Below are positions 4,523-32,920 of a DNA stretch of 64,000 nucleotides, one piece after another. Numbering within the stretch: position 1 is the first letter of the stretch; each line of letters opens with the position of its first letter. This DNA comes from Anaerolineaceae bacterium. GTDB lineage: Bacteria > Chloroflexota > Anaerolineae > Aggregatilineales > Phototrophicaceae. The stretch covers positions 1-64,000 of the forward strand of contig REDR01000123.1 of assembly GCA_007693385.1 (NCBI GenBank), written 5' to 3'. The translations under genes and the position numbers were made by a program. Under the pieces are notes generated by a model. It was not told the origin of the DNA, ran no database searches, and worked only from the letters and a program-made list of their open reading frames with translations.

Positions 4523-6224
4523 AGTCGCGCCTCATCTGTGCATAGCGTCCGTTTTGCGCGATCAACGATTGGTGATCGCCCTGTTCGACGATGCGCCCAT
4601 CGGCCAGCAGATAGATCATGTCGGCTTCGATCACGGTGTTCAGGCGATGAGCGATGCTGATGACGGTGCGCCCCTGCGCTAGCAGGCGTAACGCGCCGAT
4701 GACCAGTGCTTCGCTGGCGGTGTCCAGATTGGCCGTCGGCTCGTCGAGGACGATCAGCGGCGCATCTTTGAGGAAAGCGCGAGCGATGGCGATGCGTTGC
4801 GCCTGCCCGCCGCTCAGATGCAGGCCGCGCTCGCCGCAAGGTGTATCGTACCCCGCCGGTAGACGGCTGATGAAGTTGTGCGCGTCGGCGGAACGGGCGG
4901 CTGTGACGATCTGCTCGTCGGTGGCGTCGGGGCGTCCCATGCGGATGTTTTCCGCGATGCTGGCGTTGAATAGATACGGTTTCTGCGATACCCACGCGAT
5001 TTGATCGCGCCATGCGCCCACCGCTATATCGTTCAGCCGCGTATCGTCCAGCCGGATAACGCCCGATTGCTGGTCTAAAAAGCGCAAGATCAGCGCGGAG
5101 AGTGTGGTCTTGCCGCCGCCGCTATCGCCGACGATGGCGATTTGCTGGCCGCGCTCGATGGTCAGCGAGACACCGCGCAACGCCGGACGCTCCGGTGTGT
5201 AGGCGAAATGCACGTCGTCGATATGCAACGCCCGCCACGTATCCGGCGCGGGCTGAACCCCGCCATTAGCGGCGGGCGGCGGCTGATCCATCAGGGCATA
5301 CAACCGTTCGGCCACCGCCGCGCCCTCCGTGCCACTGTGGAAGCGCGCGCCCAGCGTCCGCAGGGGCATATAATACTCCGGCGCGATAATCAGCAGGAAA
5401 AGCGCATGATCAAACGCGATGCCGCCATACAATAGCCGGATGCCGATTTCTACCGCGACAATCGCCACGCTGAGCGTCGCTAGCAATTCCAGCGCCAGCG
5501 ATGACAGGAACGCCACACGTAACACGCCCATCGTCGCCTGCCGGAAATCTTCGGTTATGCGCCGGATGGTTTTGATCTGAAAGCGGCTACGGTTCAGCAG
5601 GCGAAGTGTGACCAACCCCTGCATCACGTCCACGAAATGAGCGCCAAGCTGACTCATGCGGGCGTGTTGTTGCCGCGCCAGATAGCCCGCCGCCTTGCCG
5701 ATCAGCACCATGAAAAGCGGGATTAGCGGCGCGGTCAGCAACATTACGAGGAACGTCAGCAGGTCAAGCGGTAGCACGACGATGATGATACACAACGGGA
5801 TGAAAATGGCGGCCAGAATCGCCGGTAGATATTCGCGGAAGTAGGAGTCTAGTTTCTCCACGCCTTCGGCCAGCGTGGTGACGATCTCGCCGCTACGCTC
5901 CGACTTGAGGAAGGCCGGGCCGAGCGCCAGTAGATGCGCCATCGTCCGGCGGCGCAAATCCGCTTTAATCGCTGTCGCCAGACGTGCGGCGGCCACCGCG
6001 CTCAACCAGCCAGCCAGCGCCCGCCCGCCGACCCCGAACAGCGCCAGCGCGAACCAGTCACCGAGCTGGTCAAGCGGGGTATTGAGCAGGTAGGCGCGGT
6101 TTATAATCTGGCTGAGCGCCCACGCCTGTATCATCAAGAAGACGGCGACGACCACCTGTAAGGCCACCGTCAGCCAGAAAGCCGCCCGTGCGATGCGCGT
6201 CTCCGCCCATAAACGCTTATTCAT
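4515..6224 (-). CDS. cydD: Heme/thiol ABC exporter subunit CydD
   Basis: Partner of CydC and first gene of cydDCAB. The 569-aa protein is a TM domain (about 15-290) fused to an ABC ATPase: Walker A GDSGGGKT (366-373), LSGGQ (470-474), Walker B IVLDEP (491-496), IAHR H-loop. First position in the operon and the CydD-like N-terminus (ARAAFWLTV) distinguish it from CydC. AGGT lies about 6 nt before the ATG. Having assembly and structural genes in one operon implies they are made together. Confidence 0.93.
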   Translation of the reverse strand: MNKRLWAETRIARAAFWLTVALQVVVAVFLMIQAWALSQIINRAYLLNTPLDQLGDWFALALFGVGGRALAGWLSAVAAARLATAIKADLRRRTMAHLLALGPAFLKSERSGEIVTTLAEGVEKLDSYFREYLPAILAAIFIPLCIIIVVLPLDLLTFLVMLLTAPLIPLFMVLIGKAAGYLARQQHARMSQLGAHFVDVMQGLVTLRLLNRSRFQIKTIRRITEDFRQATMGVLRVAFLSSLALELLATLSVAIVAVEIGIRLLYGGIAFDHALFLLIIAPEYYMPLRTLGARFHSGTEGAAVAERLYALMDQPPPAANGGVQPAPDTWRALHIDDVHFAYTPERPALRGVSLTIERGQQIAIVGDSGGGKTTLSALILRFLDQQSGVIRLDDTRLNDIAVGAWRDQIAWVSQKPYLFNASIAENIRMGRPDATDEQIVTAARSADAHNFISRLPAGYDTPCGERGLHLSGGQAQRIAIARAFLKDAPLIVLDEPTANLDTASEALVIGALRLLAQGRTVISIAHRLNTVIEADMIYLLADGRIVEQGDHQSLIAQNGRYAQMRRDYA

Positions 6225-6290
6225 CTATTGACCTGATGCTTTCATACAGGATATTCAAACCGTTCACGTAGTCCTCAATCGTTGAAGGGA

Positions 6291-6319
6291 ACTATACCAC
6301 GAATGAGCGAAGGGGTTAA
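6291..6319 (-). promoter_or_regulatory. Candidate promoter for cydDCAB
   Basis: On the minus strand, an extended -10 (TGg-TATAGT; TATAGT is the complement of 6291-6296) has a -35-like TTAACC (complement of 6314-6319) 17 bp upstream. The -35 matches TTGACA at four of six positions. It lies about 70 nt before the cydD start, after the terminator of the upstream gene. Confidence 0.35.
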
Positions 6320-6402
6320 CGGCATTATTTGTATTCCGGTGCGTGTGATTCTCGTCTTATGATGTCGGCTTGCATCGGGAGGTGGAGCGCCGCTATCTAG
6401 CA

Positions 6403-6445
6403 GAAATAAAAACAAGCCGGACGCTAAACTGTAGCATCCGGCTTG
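6403..6445 (-). terminator. Terminator after the secreted GH3 gene
   Basis: Arms 6413-6426 and 6432-6445 form a 14-nt stem (one mismatch) with a 5-nt loop. Reading on the minus strand it is followed by a T-rich run (complement of 6403-6412). It ends the glycoside operon before cydD begins. Confidence 0.85.
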
Positions 6446-6462
6446 ATGTCGTCTTGTGGAGA

Positions 6463-9147
6463 TTATTCGCTTTGATCGTCCGGTGCATCATCTAGCGAGA
6501 AGAAATACAACTCACCGAATACGCTCGGATCAAGATAGGACTGATCGGCGGTATCCCATATCGACCAGATCAGCTTGGTGTCCCGACTGCTGACTGACGC
6601 CGCGTTCAGATGGACTTGAAAGCCGATAGGCTCCGATGAAGCGGTATCAATCGACCAGATAGCGCTCTGTAGCGGGATGGCAACCTCTACCGCATAGCCG
6701 GTGTCGGTCAACACGGTGACGACCTGCGCCTCCGCGCTCGGTCCTTGCACGCCAGCGATGATAGCATCTTCCATTGGAACATCGGCGTTCAATGGCGGTA
6801 GGGTGATCTGCACGACGCCGGTCTGATAACTCGTCAATTCGAGATTGCCGGTAGCGTTGATGTAGAACTCGATGGAGTCTTCGTTCCAGTAATCCGCGCC
6901 ATGTTGCCCACTGATGATATTGTCGGCCACCACATCCGCCCACAGATACAGATAGTCCGCATCGGCAGTGGCGGCGAAGGTGATCGCCGGAAGGCCGGAG
7001 TCAAAATCGTAATCTTCCGGCAACGTGACACGCGGCACGCCCTCCCAATCATCGAACATGCCGTCCAGCGTGATGTCTACCGGAACGGGCGCGTAGTACG
7101 TTTCGCGGGGGAAACCTACCGGCGCGATCAAGTCGCTATCGTCGGGAATGCTAGCGGTGGTTGCTACTTCTTCCGGCGCACATTCAACCGCTAAATCGAG
7201 ATAAGGCGATGTCGAATCAGCGTATGTCAGGCCGTAGCCATACGGGAAAAGCGGTGACTCACAGCCTTCTGTCGGTATGTTGTCGAAATCGAACGGCAGT
7301 TGGCCGATGTCGCGCAACCACGTATAAGGCAACGTTCCGACGAAGTCGCGCTCACCGAATAGCACGTCGGTGATGCCGCCGCCTTCGGTGCCCGGCAACC
7401 ATGCCGCCACGAATGCGTCCGCGATGTTGATCTGCTCGGTGATGACCATAGGCCGCCCCGAAATTAAGATGATGACGAGTCGTTCGCTCTGCGCGGCGAC
7501 ACGTTGCACCATGGCCCGTTGCGCCCGCGATAAACTGAGCGCCATGTCATCGCCAAACCATTCAGCGTAGGGGCGCTCACCGATGACGACCACGCCAACA
7601 TCAGCGATGACCGGCTGGCCGTCGTCGTCCGTCACCACGTCAAACTGTCCGGTGCGACTATAGACCACGCGGGTATCATCGCTGACAGCATCTTCAAATG
7701 CCTGCAAGATCGTCATGCCGGGCGAGAAACTATTGCCCGTCGTGCCTTGCCACTCAATCGTCCAACCGCCCGACTGGAAGCCGAGATCGTGCGCGCCGTC
7801 ACCCGCGATGAAAACCATGCCCGCGTCTGCGGATAGTGGCAATGTTTCATCATCGTTCTTGAGCAAGACCAGCGATTGCGCGACGGCTTCGCGGGCTAGG
7901 GCGCGGTGTTCGTCAGAGCCGACGATTTCCAGCAGATCGCCGTCGCCATACGGGTTTTCAAACAGGCCAATCTCAAACTTGACGCGCAAGATATTAGACA
8001 CGGCCTCGTCGATGCGCTCCATCGAAATATCGCCATTTTCCACAGCGCGGAGCAAAGCCGACGTGAACGCCTCATAGTCATATGGCACCATGTTCATATC
8101 GATTCCGGCATTGGTAGAGACGACAACCGACGTGTAATAGTCCGGCGAGATGATATCAATCGCGCCCCAGTCGGACACGATGAAGCCATCGAATCCCAGT
8201 TCGTCGCGTAGCACATCTTGAATGAGATATTCTTGCGCGTGCATCGGCAGGTCATCCCAGCTTGTGTAGGAGACCATGATGCTACGCGCACCGGCACTTA
8301 TCGCTTCAATGTACGGCGCGAGATGCACCTCGCGCAGGGTGGCCTCGTCAACGTCGGTCAACCCGCGATCAATGTTATTCGATCCGAAGGGAGATGTTCC
8401 CCATACTGCGCCACCGTCGCCGACATAATGCTTGGGCGTGCCGAGTCCGGTGTGCGGGTCGCTGATGTCATCGCCCTGAAGCCCGCGCAAAAACGCCACC
8501 GATAACTCGGTGACAACATCGGTACGCTCGGCGTAGCCCTCATACGTGCGCCCCCAGCGAATATCACGCGGGACGGCGAGAATCGGCGCGTAGTTCCAGT
8601 AGATGCCGGTGGCGATTGTCTCCAGCGCAGTAGCACGGGCGATTTGCTCGACTAACTCGGCATTACGCGCCGCGCCCAGTCCGATGTTGTGCGGGAAGAT
8701 GACCGCGCCGCGCACGTTATTATGGCCGTGTACCGCGTCCACACCGTACAGCATCGGGATCGCTAACGGGGTCGCCAGCGCCGCATCCTGATAGGCCGTG
8801 ACCATCTCCAGCCAGCCTTCCGGCGTGTTGGGGCGCGGATAGCCGCCGCCGCCACTCAGTACCGCGCCGATGTAGTATTCGGTGACGGCTGATGGTTCGA
8901 TGCTGTCCTTCTCGATCAGCGTCATCTGGCCGACTTTCTCTTCTAACGACATCCGCGCCAGCAAATCGGCTACCCGTTCTTCGACGGGCAGATCAGGGTT
9001 GAGGTAAGCGCGTTCGTCGTCGGTGTCCGCCTGCGCGTTGAGCGTCAGACCGCCGCCATGCAGTACCCCCACGACGATCATCAGCGCAATATAGAGCAGT
9101 CGGCGGCTATGCCGTGTCAAACTTTGTCGCAACAAAATATATTCCAT
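6463..9147 (-). CDS. Secreted GH3 beta-glycosidase with CBM9-like C-terminal module
   Basis: Retaining family-3 glycoside hydrolase, probably a beta-glucosidase or related enzyme acting outside the cytoplasm. In 894 aa: an N-terminal signal/anchor (about 14-40), a GH3 TIM barrel with SDW (nucleophile Asp326), a second alpha/beta domain with GERPYAEW (acid/base Glu529), and from about 688 to 890 a DOMON/CBM9-like domain (starting VDITLDG, with a DDW motif and IPLQSA near the end). That module would bind sugar chains. GGAGG stands about 9 nt before the ATG. It is the last gene of the operon and a clear paralogue of the next upstream gene. Substrate is not predictable from sequence alone. Confidence 0.9.
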   Translation of the reverse strand: MEYILLRQSLTRHSRRLLYIALMIVVGVLHGGGLTLNAQADTDDERAYLNPDLPVEERVADLLARMSLEEKVGQMTLIEKDSIEPSAVTEYYIGAVLSGGGGYPRPNTPEGWLEMVTAYQDAALATPLAIPMLYGVDAVHGHNNVRGAVIFPHNIGLGAARNAELVEQIARATALETIATGIYWNYAPILAVPRDIRWGRTYEGYAERTDVVTELSVAFLRGLQGDDISDPHTGLGTPKHYVGDGGAVWGTSPFGSNNIDRGLTDVDEATLREVHLAPYIEAISAGARSIMVSYTSWDDLPMHAQEYLIQDVLRDELGFDGFIVSDWGAIDIISPDYYTSVVVSTNAGIDMNMVPYDYEAFTSALLRAVENGDISMERIDEAVSNILRVKFEIGLFENPYGDGDLLEIVGSDEHRALAREAVAQSLVLLKNDDETLPLSADAGMVFIAGDGAHDLGFQSGGWTIEWQGTTGNSFSPGMTILQAFEDAVSDDTRVVYSRTGQFDVVTDDDGQPVIADVGVVVIGERPYAEWFGDDMALSLSRAQRAMVQRVAAQSERLVIILISGRPMVITEQINIADAFVAAWLPGTEGGGITDVLFGERDFVGTLPYTWLRDIGQLPFDFDNIPTEGCESPLFPYGYGLTYADSTSPYLDLAVECAPEEVATTASIPDDSDLIAPVGFPRETYYAPVPVDITLDGMFDDWEGVPRVTLPEDYDFDSGLPAITFAATADADYLYLWADVVADNIISGQHGADYWNEDSIEFYINATGNLELTSYQTGVVQITLPPLNADVPMEDAIIAGVQGPSAEAQVVTVLTDTGYAVEVAIPLQSAIWSIDTASSEPIGFQVHLNAASVSSRDTKLIWSIWDTADQSYLDPSVFGELYFFSLDDAPDDQSE

Positions 9148-9171: not shown

Positions 9172-10959
9172 TTATAAACCATGTCCAAGCGGGAAAAGCG
9201 GCGGTTGATCGTGTGCCTTGAGGCGACTCAACGGCAGTTGATCCAGCGAGCGCGGCCACGAATGGTTCAGCTTGCCGGTGAATGCCACATCACCGAATAG
9301 CAGATCGGTCATGCCTGCGCCTTCTGTGCCCGGCCACCATGCCACCACGAACGCATCAGCCAGCGCGACCTGCTCGGTGATGACGAGCGGGCGTCCGGAA
9401 AACAACACGACGATCAGGCGGTCACAATGGGCGCGGGTCTTTTCGATAGCGGCGATGTCCTCGTCGCATAGCACCAGATGACCGTTATCGCCGAAGCCTT
9501 CCGCATACGGCGCTTCGCCGACGGCCACGATTCCCACCGGCGCGTGAACATCGCCGAATTCGGCGGTCGAATCGTAGATCACGCTTTCCGACGATAACTC
9601 GGCGTTCAGCGCGTCGCGCAGAGTCGTGCCGTCCACGATGTCGCCCATGCCGCCTTGCCATTCGATTGTCCAGCCGCCGCATTGCATCCCAATATCGTCG
9701 GCGCCACGTCCGGCCAGCAAGACGCGCTCAGTCGATTTGCTCAAGGGTAGGGCGTCGTTATCGTTCTTCAGTAGGACGAGCGACTTCTGCACCGCCTCGC
9801 GTGCGGTAGCACGGTGCGCCGCACAGCCGACATCATCCAGCAGAGCCGCATCGGTGATCGGGTTATCAAAAAGTCCAAGCCAGAATTTCGCCCGCAGGAT
9901 GCGGCGCACCGCGTCATCAATGCGCGACATGCTGACATCGCCATTTTCGACGGCTCGTGTCAACGCGCCGATGAACTGACGGAAGTCAAACGGCACCATG
10001 TTCATATCAATGCCGGCATTGATGGACGACACAACGCAGGTGTAATAATCGCTATCAAGCTGATTGATCGCCATCCAATCGGAGACGACGAAGCCAGCGA
10101 AGCCTAATTCACCCTTCAGCACATCGGTGACGAGATAGCGGTGTTCGTGCATCTTCTCGCCGTTCCAGCTTGAAAACGAAGTCATGACGTTCAATGCGCC
10201 CGCTTTGATCGCGTCCTCATACGGTGCCAGATGCTCGCGGCGCAGGGTTTCCTCATCAATCCGGGCATCTCCCTGGTCGATCTTGAAGCCATCATCCGGC
10301 GCTTGCCAGTTGCCATGAATCCATTCGTAAGAGCGCGTTGATTCCCACTCCGCCGCGCCATCAGCGACGAAGTGCTTGACCGATGGCAACACGCGATGAT
10401 CGGTTTCGCTCAGTCCGCGCACGTAAGCCATGCTCATCTCGCGCACCAGCGCGGTCTGTTCGCTGAAGCCCTCATACGTGCGCCCCCAGCGAATATCACG
10501 CGGCACGGAAACCGCCGGGGCGAAGTTCCAATGCACGCTGGTCGCCAGTAGTTCCTTCGCGGTGATCTGCGCGGTACGCTCGACTAATTCTGCATCGCCT
10601 GATGCGCCTAGCCCGATATTGTGCGGGAAGATGGTCGCGCCCTGCACGTTATTATGGCCGTGTACCGCATCCGAGCCGTAAATCAACGGGATGCTCAGCC
10701 GTGTTTTGAGCGCGGCCTGCTGATAGTCCACCACCATCTGCCGCCACGTCGCCGCCGTGTTCGGCTCTGGATTACCGCCACCGCCACTTAACACCGAACC
10801 GATGGCGTATTCGGTGACATCATCCGGTGTGATGCTGTTTTTCTCGGCCTGTGTCATCTGGCCGACTTTTTCCGCTAGCGTCATCTGGGCGAGCAACGCA
10901 GAAATCTGCGCTTCTAAAGCCTCGACGGTGGCCTGTACTTGCGATGAGGTTGTTCGCAT
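9172..10959 (-). CDS. Intracellular GH3 beta-glycosidase
   Basis: A 595-aa family-3 glycoside hydrolase without a signal peptide or the CBM9-like module of its neighbour. It shows KHFVADG, nucleophile Asp294 in VVSDW and the acid/base region GEAPYAEGFGD. It ends after the second GH3 domain (GHGL), so it lacks a fibronectin-III tail. It probably cleaves the oligosaccharide imported by the adjacent ABC permeases. Aaggag lies 6-7 nt before the ATG. The gene is 24 nt from its secreted paralogue and shares long near-identical DNA stretches with it. Confidence 0.9.
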   Translation of the reverse strand: MRTTSSQVQATVEALEAQISALLAQMTLAEKVGQMTQAEKNSITPDDVTEYAIGSVLSGGGGNPEPNTAATWRQMVVDYQQAALKTRLSIPLIYGSDAVHGHNNVQGATIFPHNIGLGASGDAELVERTAQITAKELLATSVHWNFAPAVSVPRDIRWGRTYEGFSEQTALVREMSMAYVRGLSETDHRVLPSVKHFVADGAAEWESTRSYEWIHGNWQAPDDGFKIDQGDARIDEETLRREHLAPYEDAIKAGALNVMTSFSSWNGEKMHEHRYLVTDVLKGELGFAGFVVSDWMAINQLDSDYYTCVVSSINAGIDMNMVPFDFRQFIGALTRAVENGDVSMSRIDDAVRRILRAKFWLGLFDNPITDAALLDDVGCAAHRATAREAVQKSLVLLKNDNDALPLSKSTERVLLAGRGADDIGMQCGGWTIEWQGGMGDIVDGTTLRDALNAELSSESVIYDSTAEFGDVHAPVGIVAVGEAPYAEGFGDNGHLVLCDEDIAAIEKTRAHCDRLIVVLFSGRPLVITEQVALADAFVVAWWPGTEGAGMTDLLFGDVAFTGKLNHSWPRSLDQLPLSRLKAHDQPPLFPLGHGL

Positions 10960-20287: not shown

Positions 20288-20324
20288 ATGTGTGTAAAAA
20301 CATGCGGCTGTGGGAGTTACATCC

Positions 20325-22265
20325 GTGAAAAACGAATTTGAGTTAGCCTTTAAGGAAATTACCGAGTTCCGCGCCTTGCCACAGGATACTGTGCTTGAGG
20401 CGCTGAAGACGGCGCTGGTCTCCGCTTACCGGCGTGATACCAACGCCAGCGCCGCCCAGCAGGTCGAAGCGATGGTCGATACAGCGACTGGACGCCCCAA
20501 AATCTTTGTGGAAAAAGAAGTCGTGGATGAAGTCGAAAATCCCGACACTGAAGTACATATCGAGAAGGCGCGTTTCTACGATCCAGAATGTCAGTTGGGC
20601 GATACTGTCATGGTGCAAATTGAAGGCACTATGAAAAAGTTCGGGCGCATCGCCGCACAGACCGCTAAACAGGTCATTTTGCAGAAAATCCGCGAAGCTG
20701 AACGTGCCGCCCTGTACGATGAGTTCATCGAAAAAGAGGGCGACATCGTTAACGGCACGATCCAGAGCGTGAACAACAACATGGTCACGGTCAGCTTAGG
20801 CCGCGCAGAGGCCATCATGCCGAAGGCGCACCAGATAAAAGGTGAGCGCTACCGCCCGCACGATAAACTGCGCGTTTATCTGCTGGAAGTCAAAAAGTCG
20901 AATCGTGGCCCGCAGATCGTCGTCAGCCGCAGTCATCGCAATATGCTCCGGCGCTTACTGGAGTTTGAAGTCCCCGAAATCTATAACGGCCAGATTGAGA
21001 TTAAAAATATCGCCCGCGAAGCCGGTTATCGCTCAAAAGTGGCGGTTGTCGCGCTACAAGAGGGCATTGATCCGGTTGGCGCGTGTGTCGGGATGCGCGG
21101 CATCCGTATTCAGAACATCGTCAAGGAATTGCAAGACGAGAAGATTGACGTGATCGAATGGAATCCGCAACAGGAATCCTTCATCGAGAAATCACTCAGT
21201 CCGGCGCGTGTGACCGGCGTCTATCTGGACGATGATCCGGACGCGGGGCGTACCGCGATTGTCGTCGTGCCGGATGACCAGCTATCGCTGGCGATTGGCC
21301 GCGAAGGGCAGAATGCCCGTCTCGCCGCCAAGCTGACCGGCTGGCGCATTGACATCAAGAGCGTGACCGAATCCGTCACCGAAGCGTTACACAATATTGA
21401 TCGCCCGCCGCTTGATGATCTTCTGCTGGAACACGCTGATCTGCTGGCCGAAGTCAGCTTGATTGTGGAGAAACAGCAAGCCGGACGCGCTGTTATGCCG
21501 GAAGAATTCCGTTTGCTGGCGCAGTTGGCCGATCTGTCCGAGCGCCGTCTGCAACAGGCACGCGACAAGGCGCGGCAGGCACGGGTGGAGGAGATCAACG
21601 CGGTTAAATTGACGTTGCCCGCGCACGCTTTCGATATTCCGGTGACTGACCTCAACTTGCAGGATCACATCATCGAATGTCTGCAACCGCTTGAAAATGT
21701 CGGCGAGATCATGCTCCGCTTCTTGATTGACGAGAACCGTCTGCGCCGTCTGCTGGGCAAAGATGCCGAGAGCGCTTTGCCATTGGTGCAGGAAGCGCTC
21801 GATGAGCTGGTCTATGCCGATACATTGCTGGAAGGGTCTACCGCCGAAACCGGCGAAACGTCCGCCGACGAGCCACAGGCTGAAATGGTGGTTGACGAGG
21901 CGGAAAATGTGGTAAAATCAGACTCGGTGATGCCTGAGCAAATGGAGCAGGCCGCTTCCGAAGAAGAGACAACCGAAGACGATGATGCCCTGCCGATAGC
22001 CTTTCCGGGTGAGCAGGACGAATCGCAGGGCAAAAAGCCAGCGCGTAAAGTCGGCGCATCTGACGCTGATGAGGCGGTATCGTTTGCTGATGACGACGAC
22101 GACGACTTCGACGAAGATGACGACGACATCAGCGATGATAAGAAGCGTGACCGCAAAGAACGCGAAAAGCGTCGTCAGTTGGTCTTTGATGAGGATACCG
22201 GACAGGTCTATGCTAAGCGTCGCCGCAAAGGAAGCCGCAAACGTGATATGTGGGATGATCTATAG
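20325..22265 (+). CDS. nusA: Transcription termination/antitermination factor NusA
   Basis: RNA polymerase-associated factor controlling pausing, termination and antitermination. In 646 aa: NusA N-terminal domain (about 1-125, [12 protein letters not shown]), S1 domain (about 130-195), KH1 (GACVGMRG) and KH2 ([18 protein letters not shown]) to about 345. A long C-terminal extension follows: helical to about 490, then acidic with an Asp/Glu run at 22093-22140, then a basic tail ending [11 protein letters not shown] at 20325 is chosen over an upstream in-frame GTG at 20310 because gggag sits 8 nt before it and the family begins here. rimP is not upstream, unlike the usual order. Confidence 0.96.
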
Positions 22266-22268
22266 CGT

Positions 22269-22580
22269 ATGACCGATAAAAATGCGAACGACACGGATAC
22301 CGAGCTGATTTCCGAAGGAAACCATCGCATTGACTGGGAACGCAAGAAAAAGCGTAAGCGTCAGGATCAGCGCGAACCTCTCGACAACCCGCCGGTGGTT
22401 GAAGAAGAGGATGCGCTGATCGCCGAAGTGTTAGAGAAGACACCGGACGACAAACACAAGCGCCGTTCGCGTAAGAAAAAGCGGCATCTGGTTTATGACG
22501 AGAGTCGCGGGACGGTGATTGTCAAGCGTAAGCGGCGGCGGCAGGCCGTCAGCGCGTGGGATGATTGGGACGATGAATAA
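22269..22580 (+). CDS. Uncharacterised 103-aa charged protein; C-terminus resembles the NusA tail
   Basis: Not a family I recognise. It starts three bases after the nusA stop with no clear ribosome site, so translation is probably coupled. It is very rich in Lys/Arg and Asp/Glu, with no predicted TM segment. Its last about 32 residues (RHLVYDESRG..., then VKRKRRR, ending AWDDWDDE) match the NusA end ([10 protein letters not shown]..., AKRRRKG, ending MWDDL) almost without gaps. A shared binding partner, perhaps RNA polymerase, the ribosome or RNA, is inferred. Confidence 0.75.
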   Translation: MTDKNANDTDTELISEGNHRIDWERKKKRKRQDQREPLDNPPVVEEEDALIAEVLEKTPDDKHKRRSRKKKRHLVYDESRGTVIVKRKRRRQAVSAWDDWDDE

Positions 22581-27173: not shown

Positions 27174-27182
27174 AAGGTGACT

Positions 27183-28130
27183 ATGAACCACATCTACGGT
27201 TTATCGAATATCCATCTTCTGCGCTCATCGGTTCTAACTATCGGCGTATTCGATGGCGTGCATCGCGGCCATCAACATCTCATCCGGCAATTGGTAGAAG
27301 CGGCACATGCCGCAGATCATCTAGCGGTGGTGATGACCTTTTTCCCGCATCCTGATGTGGTGCTGAAGGACATCAACGAGCGCTATTATCTGACGACGCC
27401 GGACGAACGCGCCCGTCAATTGCTCGAATTAGGCGTTGATGTGGTCATCACGCAGACATTTGACGACACCATGCGACGGATACCCGCCGCCGATTTTGTC
27501 GATCAACTGGTGCGCTATTTGCGCCTTAAAAAGCTGTGGGTCGGGGCGGATTTCGCGCTTGGGCATCGGCGCGAAGGTGACGTACCGTTCTTGATCGACA
27601 CGGGGCGCGAAAAAGGCTTTGATGTGCATGTTGTCGATCTGGTCGTCAGCGATACACTCGGCGCGAACATCAGCAGTACCGCCGTCCGTGAGCTATTGCG
27701 CGAAGGGCAGGTCGAGAAGGCGCGGCATTTGCTGGGACGCGGCTATACAGTCGGCGGCGAAGTGGTGCATGGTGCCAAGCGCGGACGGCAGATCGGCTTC
27801 CCGACAGCCAATATCGACGTATGGGCGGAGCAAATCATCCCGATGAATGGCGTCTATGCGGGTTGGGCATATCTGGGTGATGAGCGCTTCATGGCGATGA
27901 CCAACGTCGGCGTCAGCCCGACATTCGCGTATAAGGGCGTCACTGTGGAATCCTATCTGCTGGATTTTGACCGCGATATTTACGGCCAGACATTGACCAT
28001 CACGTTCGAGAAATTCCTGCGCCCTGAAGAGAAATATGACGGTCTGGACGCGCTCATCGCACAGATCAATCAGGATTGCGACGACGGACGCGCCTATTTG
28101 ACCGCGTTAGATGCCGGTGACGAGACTTAG
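27183..28130 (+). CDS. ribF: Bifunctional riboflavin kinase/FAD synthetase
   Basis: Makes FMN then FAD. The 315-aa protein has an N-terminal nucleotidyltransferase domain (GVFDGVHRGHQ near 20-30; ISSTAVRELL) and a C-terminal flavokinase domain (GAKRGRQIGFPTANI, NGVYAGW, NVGVSPTF). aaaagg is 5 nt before ATG 27183. Last gene of the nusA operon. It overlaps the convergent DUF692-like gene by 4 bp. No FMN riboswitch sits upstream, as expected for an internal operon gene. Confidence 0.95.
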   Translation: MNHIYGLSNIHLLRSSVLTIGVFDGVHRGHQHLIRQLVEAAHAADHLAVVMTFFPHPDVVLKDINERYYLTTPDERARQLLELGVDVVITQTFDDTMRRIPAADFVDQLVRYLRLKKLWVGADFALGHRREGDVPFLIDTGREKGFDVHVVDLVVSDTLGANISSTAVRELLREGQVEKARHLLGRGYTVGGEVVHGAKRGRQIGFPTANIDVWAEQIIPMNGVYAGWAYLGDERFMAMTNVGVSPTFAYKGVTVESYLLDFDRDIYGQTLTITFEKFLRPEEKYDGLDALIAQINQDCDDGRAYLTALDAGDET

Positions 28131-29020
28131 CGCACCGGCTCGGCGCGTTTGACCATCTGATACAGGCGCGGCACCTGTTGCCGGATGATGTCCCTGTCGG
28201 CGATCTTCTCCCACATACCGCCGACGCCGCCGTACTCAAACGCGACGATCTCCGGCGCTTGCCAGCGTCCGGCGTGTATCTGGTCGAACGCCCATGCCGT
28301 CTCTGTCCAATCCACTTCATTGAACGGCAGATGATCGACCTTGCGCCCGATGTAACGATGATAGAAGCTCTCGGCAATGCCCAGCGCTTCTAATTGCGCG
28401 ATCTTGCTCTCGTCGATGAACTCGATGCCGGTGACGTGTATCTCGCGGATTTGCGCGACGGGTAACGAGTCGAGATACTCGCGCTCGTCTCGCGCCAACC
28501 GTTCGGCGGTCAGGCGGGCGTGTGAAATATCCAGCAGGAAGCCGGCGCCGGTCTGCTCGACGACGCGCTCGATTGTCTGCGGCATGACGCCCGCCCACAA
28601 TAGGCGTTCATCGGATGCGGGTACATTCTCCACGATCACATTCTCCGTGCCGAAACGCGCCTGCAATGCGCGGATGCCGCGTGTCGCATCGGCGATGATC
28701 TGCTCGATATGTGCCGGTTCGTTGCTCTGCGTCGGGATTTCGGGGTACTCGGTACGCAGTGGCGCGAGATGCACATTGACGAACGGCGTGCCGGTCTGTT
28801 CGCGCAGGCGCTCGATTTTATCGAAGTCCGCCGGTGCGCCCGCTTCGCTGTCGATGACGGCAGAGCGCCCCAGCAGAAGCGGGAAATGCACATAGACAGG
28901 ACGTTCGGCTAGCGAGTCGATCAAGTCCGGCCATGCCGGGCACTTGAATACATCCACCTGAATCTCGCCGCTATCGACCAGACCGGCGGCGGCGGTTGAG
29001 TAGTTAATGGATACGCGCAT
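28127..29020 (-). CDS. DUF692-like (MbnB/TglH/ChrH type) TIM-barrel protein
   Basis: A 297-aa TIM barrel resembling xylose-isomerase-like proteins, closest in motif order to DUF692 iron oxidases. Candidate metal ligands visible: His45, His84 (NVHLAP), Glu131-Asn132 (VIVENVP), Asp164 and His167 (FLLDISHA), His195 (REIHVTG), Asp229-His230 (VDHLPF), Glu262 (VAFEYGG). The stretch from LLDISHA through YLDSLP to IHVTG is typical of DUF692. No precursor peptide or partner protein gene is adjacent. It is 29 nt downstream of era. Function unknown; a metal-dependent role is inferred. Confidence 0.65.
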   Translation of the reverse strand: MRVSINYSTAAAGLVDSGEIQVDVFKCPAWPDLIDSLAERPVYVHFPLLLGRSAVIDSEAGAPADFDKIERLREQTGTPFVNVHLAPLRTEYPEIPTQSNEPAHIEQIIADATRGIRALQARFGTENVIVENVPASDERLLWAGVMPQTIERVVEQTGAGFLLDISHARLTAERLARDEREYLDSLPVAQIREIHVTGIEFIDESKIAQLEALGIAESFYHRYIGRKVDHLPFNEVDWTETAWAFDQIHAGRWQAPEIVAFEYGGVGGMWEKIADRDIIRQQVPRLYQMVKRAEPVR

Positions 29021-29049: not shown

Positions 29050-29985
29050 TCATTTTCGCGGCATACGATAGCCGACACGCTTCAAGAAACGCTCGTTCGT
29101 GCGCCAATCTTTCAGCACTTTGGCGTGCAGGTCGAGATAGATTTTCGTGCCGGTGACGTTGGCGAGTTCGCGGCGGGCGCGTGTGCCGATCGCTTTTATC
29201 ATCGCGCCACCTTTGCCGACGATGATCCCTTTTTGCGAGTCGCGCTCGACGTGGATCACCGCGCTGACGTAGGTCAGATCGGCGCTACGCTCTTTGTACT
29301 CTTCGATCTCCACCGCGACGGCGTAGGGGATTTCCTGCTCGGTCTTTTCGATGATGGCTTCGCGGATGATCTCGGCGGCGATGAAGCGCATGTTTACCTC
29401 ACTGACCTGATCGGCGGGGTAGTAGCGCGGGCCGTGCGGCAGATAGCCGGTCAGATGGTCGAGCAACTCACTGACGCCAGCGCCGTTTAATGCGCTGATG
29501 GCGGCTGAATGCGTGTGTTCGATGACTGCATGATGGGCGCTGAGATCGGGCGCGTTCGGCAGGAGGTCGGCCTTGTTGAGCGCCAGCACGACCGGCGTCT
29601 CGCCTTTGATCGTCCGCAAGCGTTCAGCGATCTGCTGTTCGGCTTCCTGCGGTGGTGTGGAGGCGTCCAGCACCCATAGGATTACGTCAGCGTCTTTGAT
29701 GGCGTCCTCCGCTACGCTGACCATGTAATCGCCTAATTTGTTGTGCGGCTTGTGTAGGCCGGGCGTATCCACCAGAAGCGCCTGCATATCGGGGCGGGTA
29801 TAAATCCCTAGCTGGCGCTTGCGGGTGGTCTGCGGTTTGTTGGTGACGATGGCGATCTTCTGGCCGAGTATGCGGTTAATCAGCGTGGATTTTCCGGCAT
29901 TGGGGCGGCCAACAACGGCGATCACCCCTGAGCGATGATCTTCCGGCCAATCTTCTTGAAAAGTATTGTCGTCCTGTTCGTCCAA
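29050..29985 (-). CDS. era: GTPase Era
   Basis: Ras-like GTPase that binds the 3' end of 16S rRNA during 30S assembly. The 311-aa protein has an N-terminal G domain with GRPNAGKST, switch DTPGLHKP and LNKADLL, and a C-terminal KH domain with IIVGKGGAMIKAIGT. The start is TTG, with a weak purine-rich site (agagac) upstream. It lies 57 nt after the small membrane protein gene and 29 nt before the DUF692-like gene, all co-directional. Confidence 0.96.
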   Translation of the reverse strand: MDEQDDNTFQEDWPEDHRSGVIAVVGRPNAGKSTLINRILGQKIAIVTNKPQTTRKRQLGIYTRPDMQALLVDTPGLHKPHNKLGDYMVSVAEDAIKDADVILWVLDASTPPQEAEQQIAERLRTIKGETPVVLALNKADLLPNAPDLSAHHAVIEHTHSAAISALNGAGVSELLDHLTGYLPHGPRYYPADQVSEVNMRFIAAEIIREAIIEKTEQEIPYAVAVEIEEYKERSADLTYVSAVIHVERDSQKGIIVGKGGAMIKAIGTRARRELANVTGTKIYLDLHAKVLKDWRTNERFLKRVGYRMPRK

Positions 29986-31864: not shown

Positions 31865-32920
31865 ATGGACACAAAAAGAATCCCTATAACGATCCTCACC
31901 GGCTTTTTGGGCGCGGGCAAAACGACGCTATTGAATCATATCATTCATGGCGATCATGGTCGGCGCGTGGCGGTACTGGTCAATGACTTCGGCGCGATTA
32001 ACATCGATAGCCAGCTTGTCGAAGATGTTCAGGAAGATATGATTAGTCTGTCGAATGGGTGCATCTGTTGCACGATTCGCGGCGATTTCGTGGCGGCGGT
32101 GCAGCGCGTAGCGAGCCGTCCTGACCAACCAGATTACATCGTGGTTGAGGCGTCCGGCGTGGCTGATCCCATCGACATCGGCCTGACGTTCAAATCAATG
32201 CCGAACGTCATGATCGACAGCATTCTAGCCGTCATCGACGCGGAGCAAATCCGCACGCTTGATCGACAATATGCGGTGCTGGCGATGAATCAGATCGGCG
32301 TGGCCGACATCGCCATCTTGAATAAAGTTGATCTGGTCACACCGGAACAATTGGCCGAAGTGCGCGACTACATCCAGAGCATCACAAAATCCGCCCGCAT
32401 TTTTGAGACGACGCACGGCGACGTGCCATTAGAGTTGATCCTCAACGTTGGGGAATACGATGTCGCCCGCCTGCTGGAAAGGCCATCGCAGGCGGTTCAC
32501 GTTCACGATGCCCCGACGGGCGACCACGATCACGACCATCATCATCATGAAGCGCACGATCAGGTCTTCACGACATGGAGCTGGACGAGCGACGAGCCGC
32601 TATCATTCAAAGAATTACGTCGCGCTCTCGGTCATCTGCCGCCCAATGTCTACCGTGCGAAGGGGATATTCTACGTCGCCGACCAGCCGACGCATCGCGT
32701 GCTGGGGCAGGTGGTCGGCCAGCGCGTCAATCTGCAACTGGCGCAGGCGTGGACGGACGACGAGACGCCGACTTCGCAGTTCGTGATGATCGCCAGCCGG
32801 GACGGGCTAGATCACGAAGCGCTGACCGCACTCATGGATGGTTGCCTGCAACGCAATGCGCCTAAAAATGAATTGGAGCGTCTGGCGCAGGGCGTGTTAT
32901 CGTGGTTGCGCGGCGGTTGA
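31865..32920 (+). CDS. COG0523/CobW-family metallochaperone GTPase
   Basis: G3E-family GTPase, probably delivering a metal (Zn or another) to a client enzyme. The 351-aa protein has P-loop GFLGAGKTT (13-21), the metal-binding GCICC (Cys66, Cys68, Cys69), Walker B EASGVADP and base motif NKVD (153-156). A His/Asp-rich loop at about 212-231 (HDHDHHHHEAHD) follows, then the CobW C-terminal domain. No vitamin B12 or nitrile hydratase gene is nearby, so the client is unknown. No ribosome site is seen. Confidence 0.92.
   Translation: MDTKRIPITILTGFLGAGKTTLLNHIIHGDHGRRVAVLVNDFGAINIDSQLVEDVQEDMISLSNGCICCTIRGDFVAAVQRVASRPDQPDYIVVEASGVADPIDIGLTFKSMPNVMIDSILAVIDAEQIRTLDRQYAVLAMNQIGVADIAILNKVDLVTPEQLAEVRDYIQSITKSARIFETTHGDVPLELILNVGEYDVARLLERPSQAVHVHDAPTGDHDHDHHHHEAHDQVFTTWSWTSDEPLSFKELRRALGHLPPNVYRAKGIFYVADQPTHRVLGQVVGQRVNLQLAQAWTDDETPTSQFVMIASRDGLDHEALTALMDGCLQRNAPKNELERLAQGVLSWLRGG

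Follow-up and report, generated by a model that had tools for sequence, protein, structure and literature searches.

A DUF692/MNIO-like protein of Chloroflexota with a DxxH motif at the predicted third metal site and no adjacent peptide partner

Described relatives and the locus in the window

The closest described systems are the MNIOs MbnB, TglH, HvfB, ChrH and ApyH, which share with the protein studied here the Pfam family PF05114, the fold and the six residues that bind Fe1 and Fe2 in TglH (H71, H107, E151, D184, H216 and E258; PMC10880893). Fe3 of TglH is bound by D184, N187, D229 and H231 (PMC10880893). The corresponding site-3 residues of HvfB are N175, D242 and H244, each of which gave an inactive enzyme when changed to alanine, and the third metal site of MNIOs has been called a source of speculation (PMC13419390). 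In a collection of about 14,000 PF05114 proteins, Antoine et al. noted that the precursors of small MNIO groups are often difficult to identify and that proteins may be the substrates of some of these enzymes (PMC12452194). Two contexts from that work, adjamnio-II and adjamnio-III, resemble the present case in that an MNIO-family gene lacks a recognizable precursor; they have constant neighbors, namely a peptidyl-tRNA hydrolase-like protein or an HExxH protein together with an MNIO-nitroreductase fusion, whereas the gene type described here has none. The sections of the same paper covered here contain no mention of a site-3 variant, and the words "Chloroflexota" and "ligand" are absent from its text. 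Likewise, the portions of the MNIO literature covered here hold no mention of the DxxH branch described below, which may have been described earlier elsewhere.

We analyzed a stretch of 64,000 nucleotides from an Anaerolineaceae bacterium of the phylum Chloroflexota (contig REDR01000123.1), referred to here as the window. At 28127–29020 on the minus strand, it carries a DUF692/MNIO-like gene that forms an intact, uninterrupted open reading frame (ORF) of 297 aa with an ATG start and its stop codon within this range. The ORF contains the stretch LLDISHA...YLDSLP...IHVTG, from which a sequence-only reading of the window had recognized the DUF692 family, and the two neighbors named in that reading, era and ribF, both adjoin the gene. 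The era gene (29050–29985, minus strand) lies upstream on the same strand at a distance of 29 bp, and ribF (27177–28130, plus strand) is convergent with the gene and overlaps it by 4 bp, so that neither flank has space for an adjacent precursor gene. Because no promoter-like or terminator-like site on the minus strand separates era from the DUF692/MNIO-like gene, the two are probably co-transcribed. The gene is present as a single copy in this genome, the second match of the window protein (P0001) being at noise level (E = 0.23).

Two further features of the window were observed. A CobW-type metal GTPase with a GCICC motif and a His-rich loop is encoded at 31865–32920 (plus strand), about 3 kb from the gene. 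A NusA-like protein with an acidic/basic tail (20310–22265, plus strand) is followed by an ORF of 103 aa (22269–22580, plus strand) with a similar end, ...LVYDESRGTVIVKRKRRRQAVSAWDDWDDE, this C-terminal motif being common to both.

Family, fold and candidate metal ligands

The window protein belongs to the DUF692/MNIO superfamily, and the assignment made from the sequence alone was right at this level by HMM, profile and fold. In Pfam, searched at E up to 10, the only family found was PF05114 (MbnB_TglH_ChrH; E = 6.4e-8), with a score of 32.6 bits against a curated cut-off of 25, while AP_endonuc_2 (PF01261) gave no match at the same threshold. All NCBIfam equivalogs scored far below their cut-offs: the best was ApyH (51.2 of 400 bits), and BufB (33 of 310), HvfB (18.1 of 360) and MbnB (12.9 of 325) were missed as well. 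CbiR, a cobamide-remodeling phosphodiesterase of the wider superfamily, gave a weak HMM match, but the window protein lies far under its cut-off (19.5 vs. 105 bits; NF041277). Across 43 aligned orthologues searched at E up to 0.1, PF05114 was matched by all 43, CbiR by 18 and AP_endonuc_2 by ten, and PF05114 had the best E-value in every member.

A profile search of PDB sequences placed 3BWW (E = 4.6e-9), TglH and MbnB on top and detected endonuclease IV weakly (E = 0.06). The AF2 model of the window protein (mean pLDDT 96.4) is a predicted TIM barrel with MbnB, TglH and 3BWW as its nearest structures. These three proteins filled the seven best rows of the structural alignment (Z 17.7–18.6 over 222–245 residues, rmsd 3.2–3.9), followed by IolI (Z 16.8) and ketose 3-epimerases (about 15–16). 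They also filled ranks 1–7 in Foldseek, in which endonuclease IV (5zhz) came eighth; endonuclease IV is absent from the best 50 structural alignments, which leaves room for it below them. Active sites of TIM barrels form at the C-terminal ends of the strands, and the candidate ligands of the model lie at or just past these ends.

The sequence-only reading had listed His45, His84, Glu131, Asp164, His195, Asp229 and Glu262 as possible ligands. These hold as conserved residues: in the 43-member alignment, six of them are invariant, and His45 occurs in 42 rows, the remaining row being cut off before this position. The list lacked two further invariant candidates, His167 and His230. All nine residues are invariant among the window-type sequences defined below.

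By alignment, the window protein retains all six residues that bind Fe1 and Fe2 in TglH, their codons lying on the minus strand. They are His45 (28886–28888; TglH H71; 58 of 58 window-type sequences), His84 (Asn82-His84 codons at 28769–28777; H107; 59/59, with Asn82 in 57/59), Glu131, a candidate bridging ligand (Glu131-Asn132 codons at 28625–28630; E151; 59/59), Asp164 (D184), His195 (28436–28438; H216; 59/59) and Glu262 (E262-Y-G-G265 codons at 28226–28237; E258; 59/59). Site 3 departs from this agreement. The pattern seen in TglH and HvfB, an Asn combined with D-x-H, is replaced in the window protein by His167, which stands at the position of TglH N187 in the motif D164-x-x-H167 (28520–28531), and by Asp229-His230 (28331–28336), which correspond to TglH D229 and H231 but are directly adjacent. 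His167 and the adjacent pair are each found in 59 of 59 window-type sequences. Of 104 aligned distinct relatives, 82 have His and 22 have Asn at the position of His167.

The residues of Escherichia coli endonuclease IV (Nfo) that align with the nine candidates are H69, H109, E145, D179, H182, H216, D229, H231 and E261, which we take to be its zinc ligands. Endonuclease IV, too, has His at site 3, so that all nine of its residue types, DxxH included, recur in the window protein, likewise in a TIM barrel. It differs from endonuclease IV in its remote sequence and in its closer structural match to MNIOs in Foldseek. In addition, both Nfo and the Asn-type relatives have D-x-H, whereas no residue separates Asp229 and His230 in the window protein, suggesting that its site 3 may be built otherwise.

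Groups, distribution and gene neighborhoods

The site-3 survey was confined to ORFs of at least 150 aa, hence one partial gene is missing from it; PF05114 matches of two further genomes were not included. Duplicate removal reduced 129 matches to 104, of which all but two (L133 and L156) fell into three groups. The window type (59 sequences) combines DxxH and E-x-GG with a D-H pair that is directly adjacent. A second DxxH group of Chloroflexota (21 sequences) resembles it in the DxxH motif and in having no peptide neighbor that we could see, but has D-x-H in 20 of 21 sequences, mostly Tyr at position 238 and mostly no GG after the Glu. The Asn type (22 sequences) has D-x-H throughout. Asn-type genes were found in only five genomes of a class-wide PF05114 search, in which 60 of 298 genomes scored above the cut-off. 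A PF05114 match alone, although labeled "RiPP precursor modification enzyme", need not signal a RiPP cluster.

A phylogenetic tree of 70 rows was constructed with the site-3 column excluded; its other window-type sequences were 22 drawn at random from 56, with two set aside (L058 and L155) and one omitted (L123). The window type and the Asn type each formed a single clade (100/100 and 96/84, respectively), and the second DxxH group was paraphyletic. All three outgroup sequences, Nfo and a pair of PF01261 proteins encoded in the window's genome, carry His at site 3, making His the likely ancestral state, although the root is weak (70/26) and the outgroup branches are long. In profile comparisons with Nfo, the second group came closest (E = 3.6e-5), followed by the window type (E = 0.0017, 15% probability in hhalign) and the Asn type (E = 0.074); the window type itself matched the second DxxH group at E = 6.6e-49 and the Asn type at E = 4e-21. 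One of the two sequences outside the groups, a Streptomyces plasmid protein of 533 aa (L133, 694–2295), matches PF05114 with its first half (88 bits), has DxxH and was placed beside the Asn clade. We hold the fold, the ligand residues and the separate clade of the window type with high confidence.

Matches at E up to 0.001 were present in 31 of the 61 related genomes, the window's own among them; 27 of the 31 were of the window type, the remaining four belonged to the second DxxH group, and one genome carried two window-type genes (L069 and L088). In a sample of the phylum, at least 20 of 400 genomes matched A1 (E up to 1e-10), half of these 20 with the window type, from a first pass that scored at most six candidates per genome and may miss some. 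The window-type gene is thus common yet patchy, and so accessory rather than core. The proposal that it represents a housekeeping branch of the family is consistent with a gene that stands alone, but not with this patchy occurrence.

Within the genomes examined, the window-type clade was observed only in Chloroflexota. A search of genome contigs covering close relatives returned five loci, all from this phylum, and the other genome searches were confined to Chloroflexota, so window-type genes may also exist elsewhere. Among viral contigs, 15 stretches matched the single pattern used and none was confirmed; among plasmids, the window protein weakly matched five records, none of them covering more than 80% of the query.

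No neighbor family with a fixed place was found over the 43 window-type and three distant loci. The era gene precedes the DUF692/MNIO-like gene in 2 of 43 loci, the window and its nearest relative (L067, with a 4-bp overlap; another locus, L071, is cut off upstream), and the linkage to era that the sequence-only reading had raised is therefore local to these two. Its remark that no precursor peptide or partner gene lies alongside was borne out by surveys of neighbors, short ORFs and Cys-containing ORFs. The only overlap-free short-ORF families recurring in at least three loci were antisense to the gene or to a GNAT-like neighbor, and no intergenic ORF of 20–150 aa with more than three Cys occurs at 22.0–34.2 kb of the window. 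The DUF2063 partner (PF09836) was found in none of the 61 genomes, the control in Caulobacter being positive. No precursor adjoining the gene was found, and unlinked precursors may exist. The window protein thus lacks three features of RiPP-modifying MNIOs that were tested: the site-3 Asn, an adjacent precursor and a DUF2063 partner.

As a positive control, two of five Asn-type loci from Chloroflexota have, just upstream, an ORF of 63–64 aa with a GCELCxxC motif (L160, 3972–4166; L161, 5015–5206), and L161 also has a Nif11 peptide downstream (6144–6485). These two loci are likely RiPP clusters. Of ten plasmid references, four (L129, L131, L137 and L138) are preceded by a DUF2282 gene and followed by one for a "DNA-binding domain", and four are unannotated at these positions; a "membrane protein" gene replaces DUF2282 in L132, and L133 has neither gene.

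Two candidate partners were rejected. The order GNAT-like–MNIO–PLD-like occurs in seven loci of a single family (f22) and was not accepted as a general operon arrangement. The GNAT-like neighbor, of 176 aa, resembles a GNAT acetyltransferase by eye, with no Pfam match at 1e-5 for the representative L003; six of the seven loci also have a hexapeptide-repeat (LbH) gene before, and four have a CHAD protein. A cluster of ABC-transporter ORFs, seen in 10 of 46 loci, lay at scattered distances and was ascribed to the large size of that family.

Several other arrangements were observed at individual loci. In L096, the window-type gene directly follows a cupin gene (8596–8967) and is convergent with a gene for a DtxR/MntR-type iron-dependent repressor (9771–10472); the neighborhood of L097 looks similar by eye. 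Genes of the second DxxH group follow a FabG-like short-chain dehydrogenase gene in L163 (4110–4856, checked with Pfam) and L168 (1481–2227), with FabD-like genes farther upstream by eye. Ribosome-associated GTPases are encoded upstream of DxxH members in different lineages: Era in the window and in L067 (9978–11000), YchF in L165 (7007–8086) and HflX in L104 (10119–11516). These cases are few and may be due to chance.

Possible substrates and mechanism

The residues at the barrel mouth form the likely substrate pocket. Asn6-Tyr7-Ser8 (codons at 28997–29005, minus strand) lie at the end of strand 1, and Lys26 to Trp30 (KCPAW, codons at 28931–28945, minus strand) at the end of strand 2. Among window-type sequences, N6, S8, K26 and W30 are invariant (58/58) and Y7 nearly so (55/58); N82 and D237 each occur in 57 of 59 sequences, and G264 and G265 in all 59. 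K26 and W30 are also present in a representative of the second DxxH group. In contrast to the MNIOs, the window type has barrel-mouth residues of its own: an Asn-type reference (L134) differs at N6, Y7, S8, K26 and N82, and no Asn-type sequence has Asp at position 237, although W238 is common to many of them. Such strict conservation, at 35–48% identity within the 43-member alignment, points to a barrel mouth that serves one conserved substrate rather than varied, fast-changing peptides.

The terminal oxidases of the host genomes bear on the role of oxygen. Of 58 window-type carriers, 48 have an oxidase of the two families searched, and ten, 93–99% complete, show no match to either COX1 or cytochrome bd subunit I; two genomes (G272 and G044) have cytochrome bd without COX1. 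The ten genomes fall into three families (f22, f55 and f58), and their ten sequences keep all nine ligand residues. That these genomes keep the gene intact while having neither oxidase family speaks against a reaction that strictly requires O2. Both oxidases were also lacking in 6 of 20 carriers of the second DxxH group and in 16 of 78 DxxH carriers overall, compared with 0 of 12 Asn-type carriers, a contrast that is not significant (p = 0.19 for the window type, p = 0.11 for DxxH; uncorrected for kinship). In the same search, 15 non-carriers all had COX1, but these are close relatives and no fair sample.

Its separate branch, the altered composition of its metal site and the missing peptide partner suggest that the window type probably does a different job from the known MNIOs. 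The chemistry implied by the sequence-only reading, iron acting on Cys, may still apply; the site-3 ligand is not that of the characterized enzymes, and ten carriers have neither of the terminal oxidase families searched. The reading that we favor, with a probability of about 0.4 for the whole mechanism, is a stand-alone, O2-independent, phosphoesterase-like tri-metal enzyme whose conserved substrate is not a RiPP. In such an enzyme, two metals would be held by His45, His84, Glu131, Asp164, His195 and Glu262, and a third by His167, Asp229 and His230. No RiPP precursor would be modified; instead, one small conserved substrate would bind at the barrel mouth formed by Asn6, Tyr7, Ser8, Lys26, Trp30, Asn82, Asp237 and Gly264-Gly265. 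The reaction would proceed without O2, probably through a metal-bound water attacking a phosphoester, as in endonuclease IV and CbiR. For CbiR, anoxic conditions were required and EDTA was inhibitory (PMC7733943). The computation yields the superfamily and fold, the conserved ligand residues with His at site 3, the separate clade, the missing peptide and DUF2063 partners and the intact genes of carriers that have neither oxidase family; the arrangement and identity of the metals, the independence from O2, the hydrolysis and the substrate are what we infer. Several observations speak against this reading: in sequence and fold, the window protein is nearer to the oxidative MNIOs than to endonuclease IV, it has no PF01261 match and only a weak one to CbiR, Asp229 and His230 are not spaced as in Nfo, and the oxidase contrast is not significant.

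The main rival is a genuine MNIO oxidase, which would depend on iron and O2 and modify a peptide or protein whose gene lies elsewhere; its partner would be lacking or unrecognized. The nearest solved structures, the best HMMs and the six conserved Fe1/Fe2 ligands of TglH would all fit this, as would the oxidases of 48 carriers and the elusive precursors and possible protein substrates described for small MNIO groups (PMC12452194). We nevertheless consider it rather unlikely, because site 3 has His instead of Asn in every window-type sequence, DUF2063 is missing from all 61 genomes, ten carriers lack either oxidase family, and a barrel mouth so strictly conserved suits a single fixed substrate more than a range of peptides.

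It appears improbable that the protein is a xylose isomerase-like isomerase, epimerase or lyase that uses one or two metals to act on a sugar or a comparable metabolite. IolI and the ketose 3-epimerases do come next after the MNIOs in structure, ten of 43 members match AP_endonuc_2, and the window-type genes of L096 and L097 come after a cupin gene, but PF05114 scores better in every member, and the invariant His45, His84, His167, Asp229 and His230 exceed what a mono-metal epimerase needs. A ribosome-maturation factor working with Era or other ribosome-associated GTPases, as the position of era in the window and L067 and of ychF (L165 and its kin) and hflX (L104) before second-group members might suggest, is very improbable given that era is found in only 2 of 43 loci, that other neighbors vary widely and that the window's Era has no Cys.

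For the family as a whole, the phosphoesterase-like reading has a tentative counterpart, which we regard as possible but somewhat doubtful. The DxxH branches would represent an older, non-oxidative, O2-independent tri-metal part of the superfamily with the ligand set of endonuclease IV, and the peptide-oxidizing MNIOs would have arisen from it once, through a His-to-Asn swap that loosened site 3.

If this view of the family is true, the window protein would represent a new enzyme class with a conserved metabolite as its substrate. A natural branch with His at site 3, no peptide partner and apparently anaerobic members would offer a direct test of the role of site 3 in MNIOs, and the same branch may provide a route to understanding how an oxidase family grew from a superfamily of hydrolases and isomerases.
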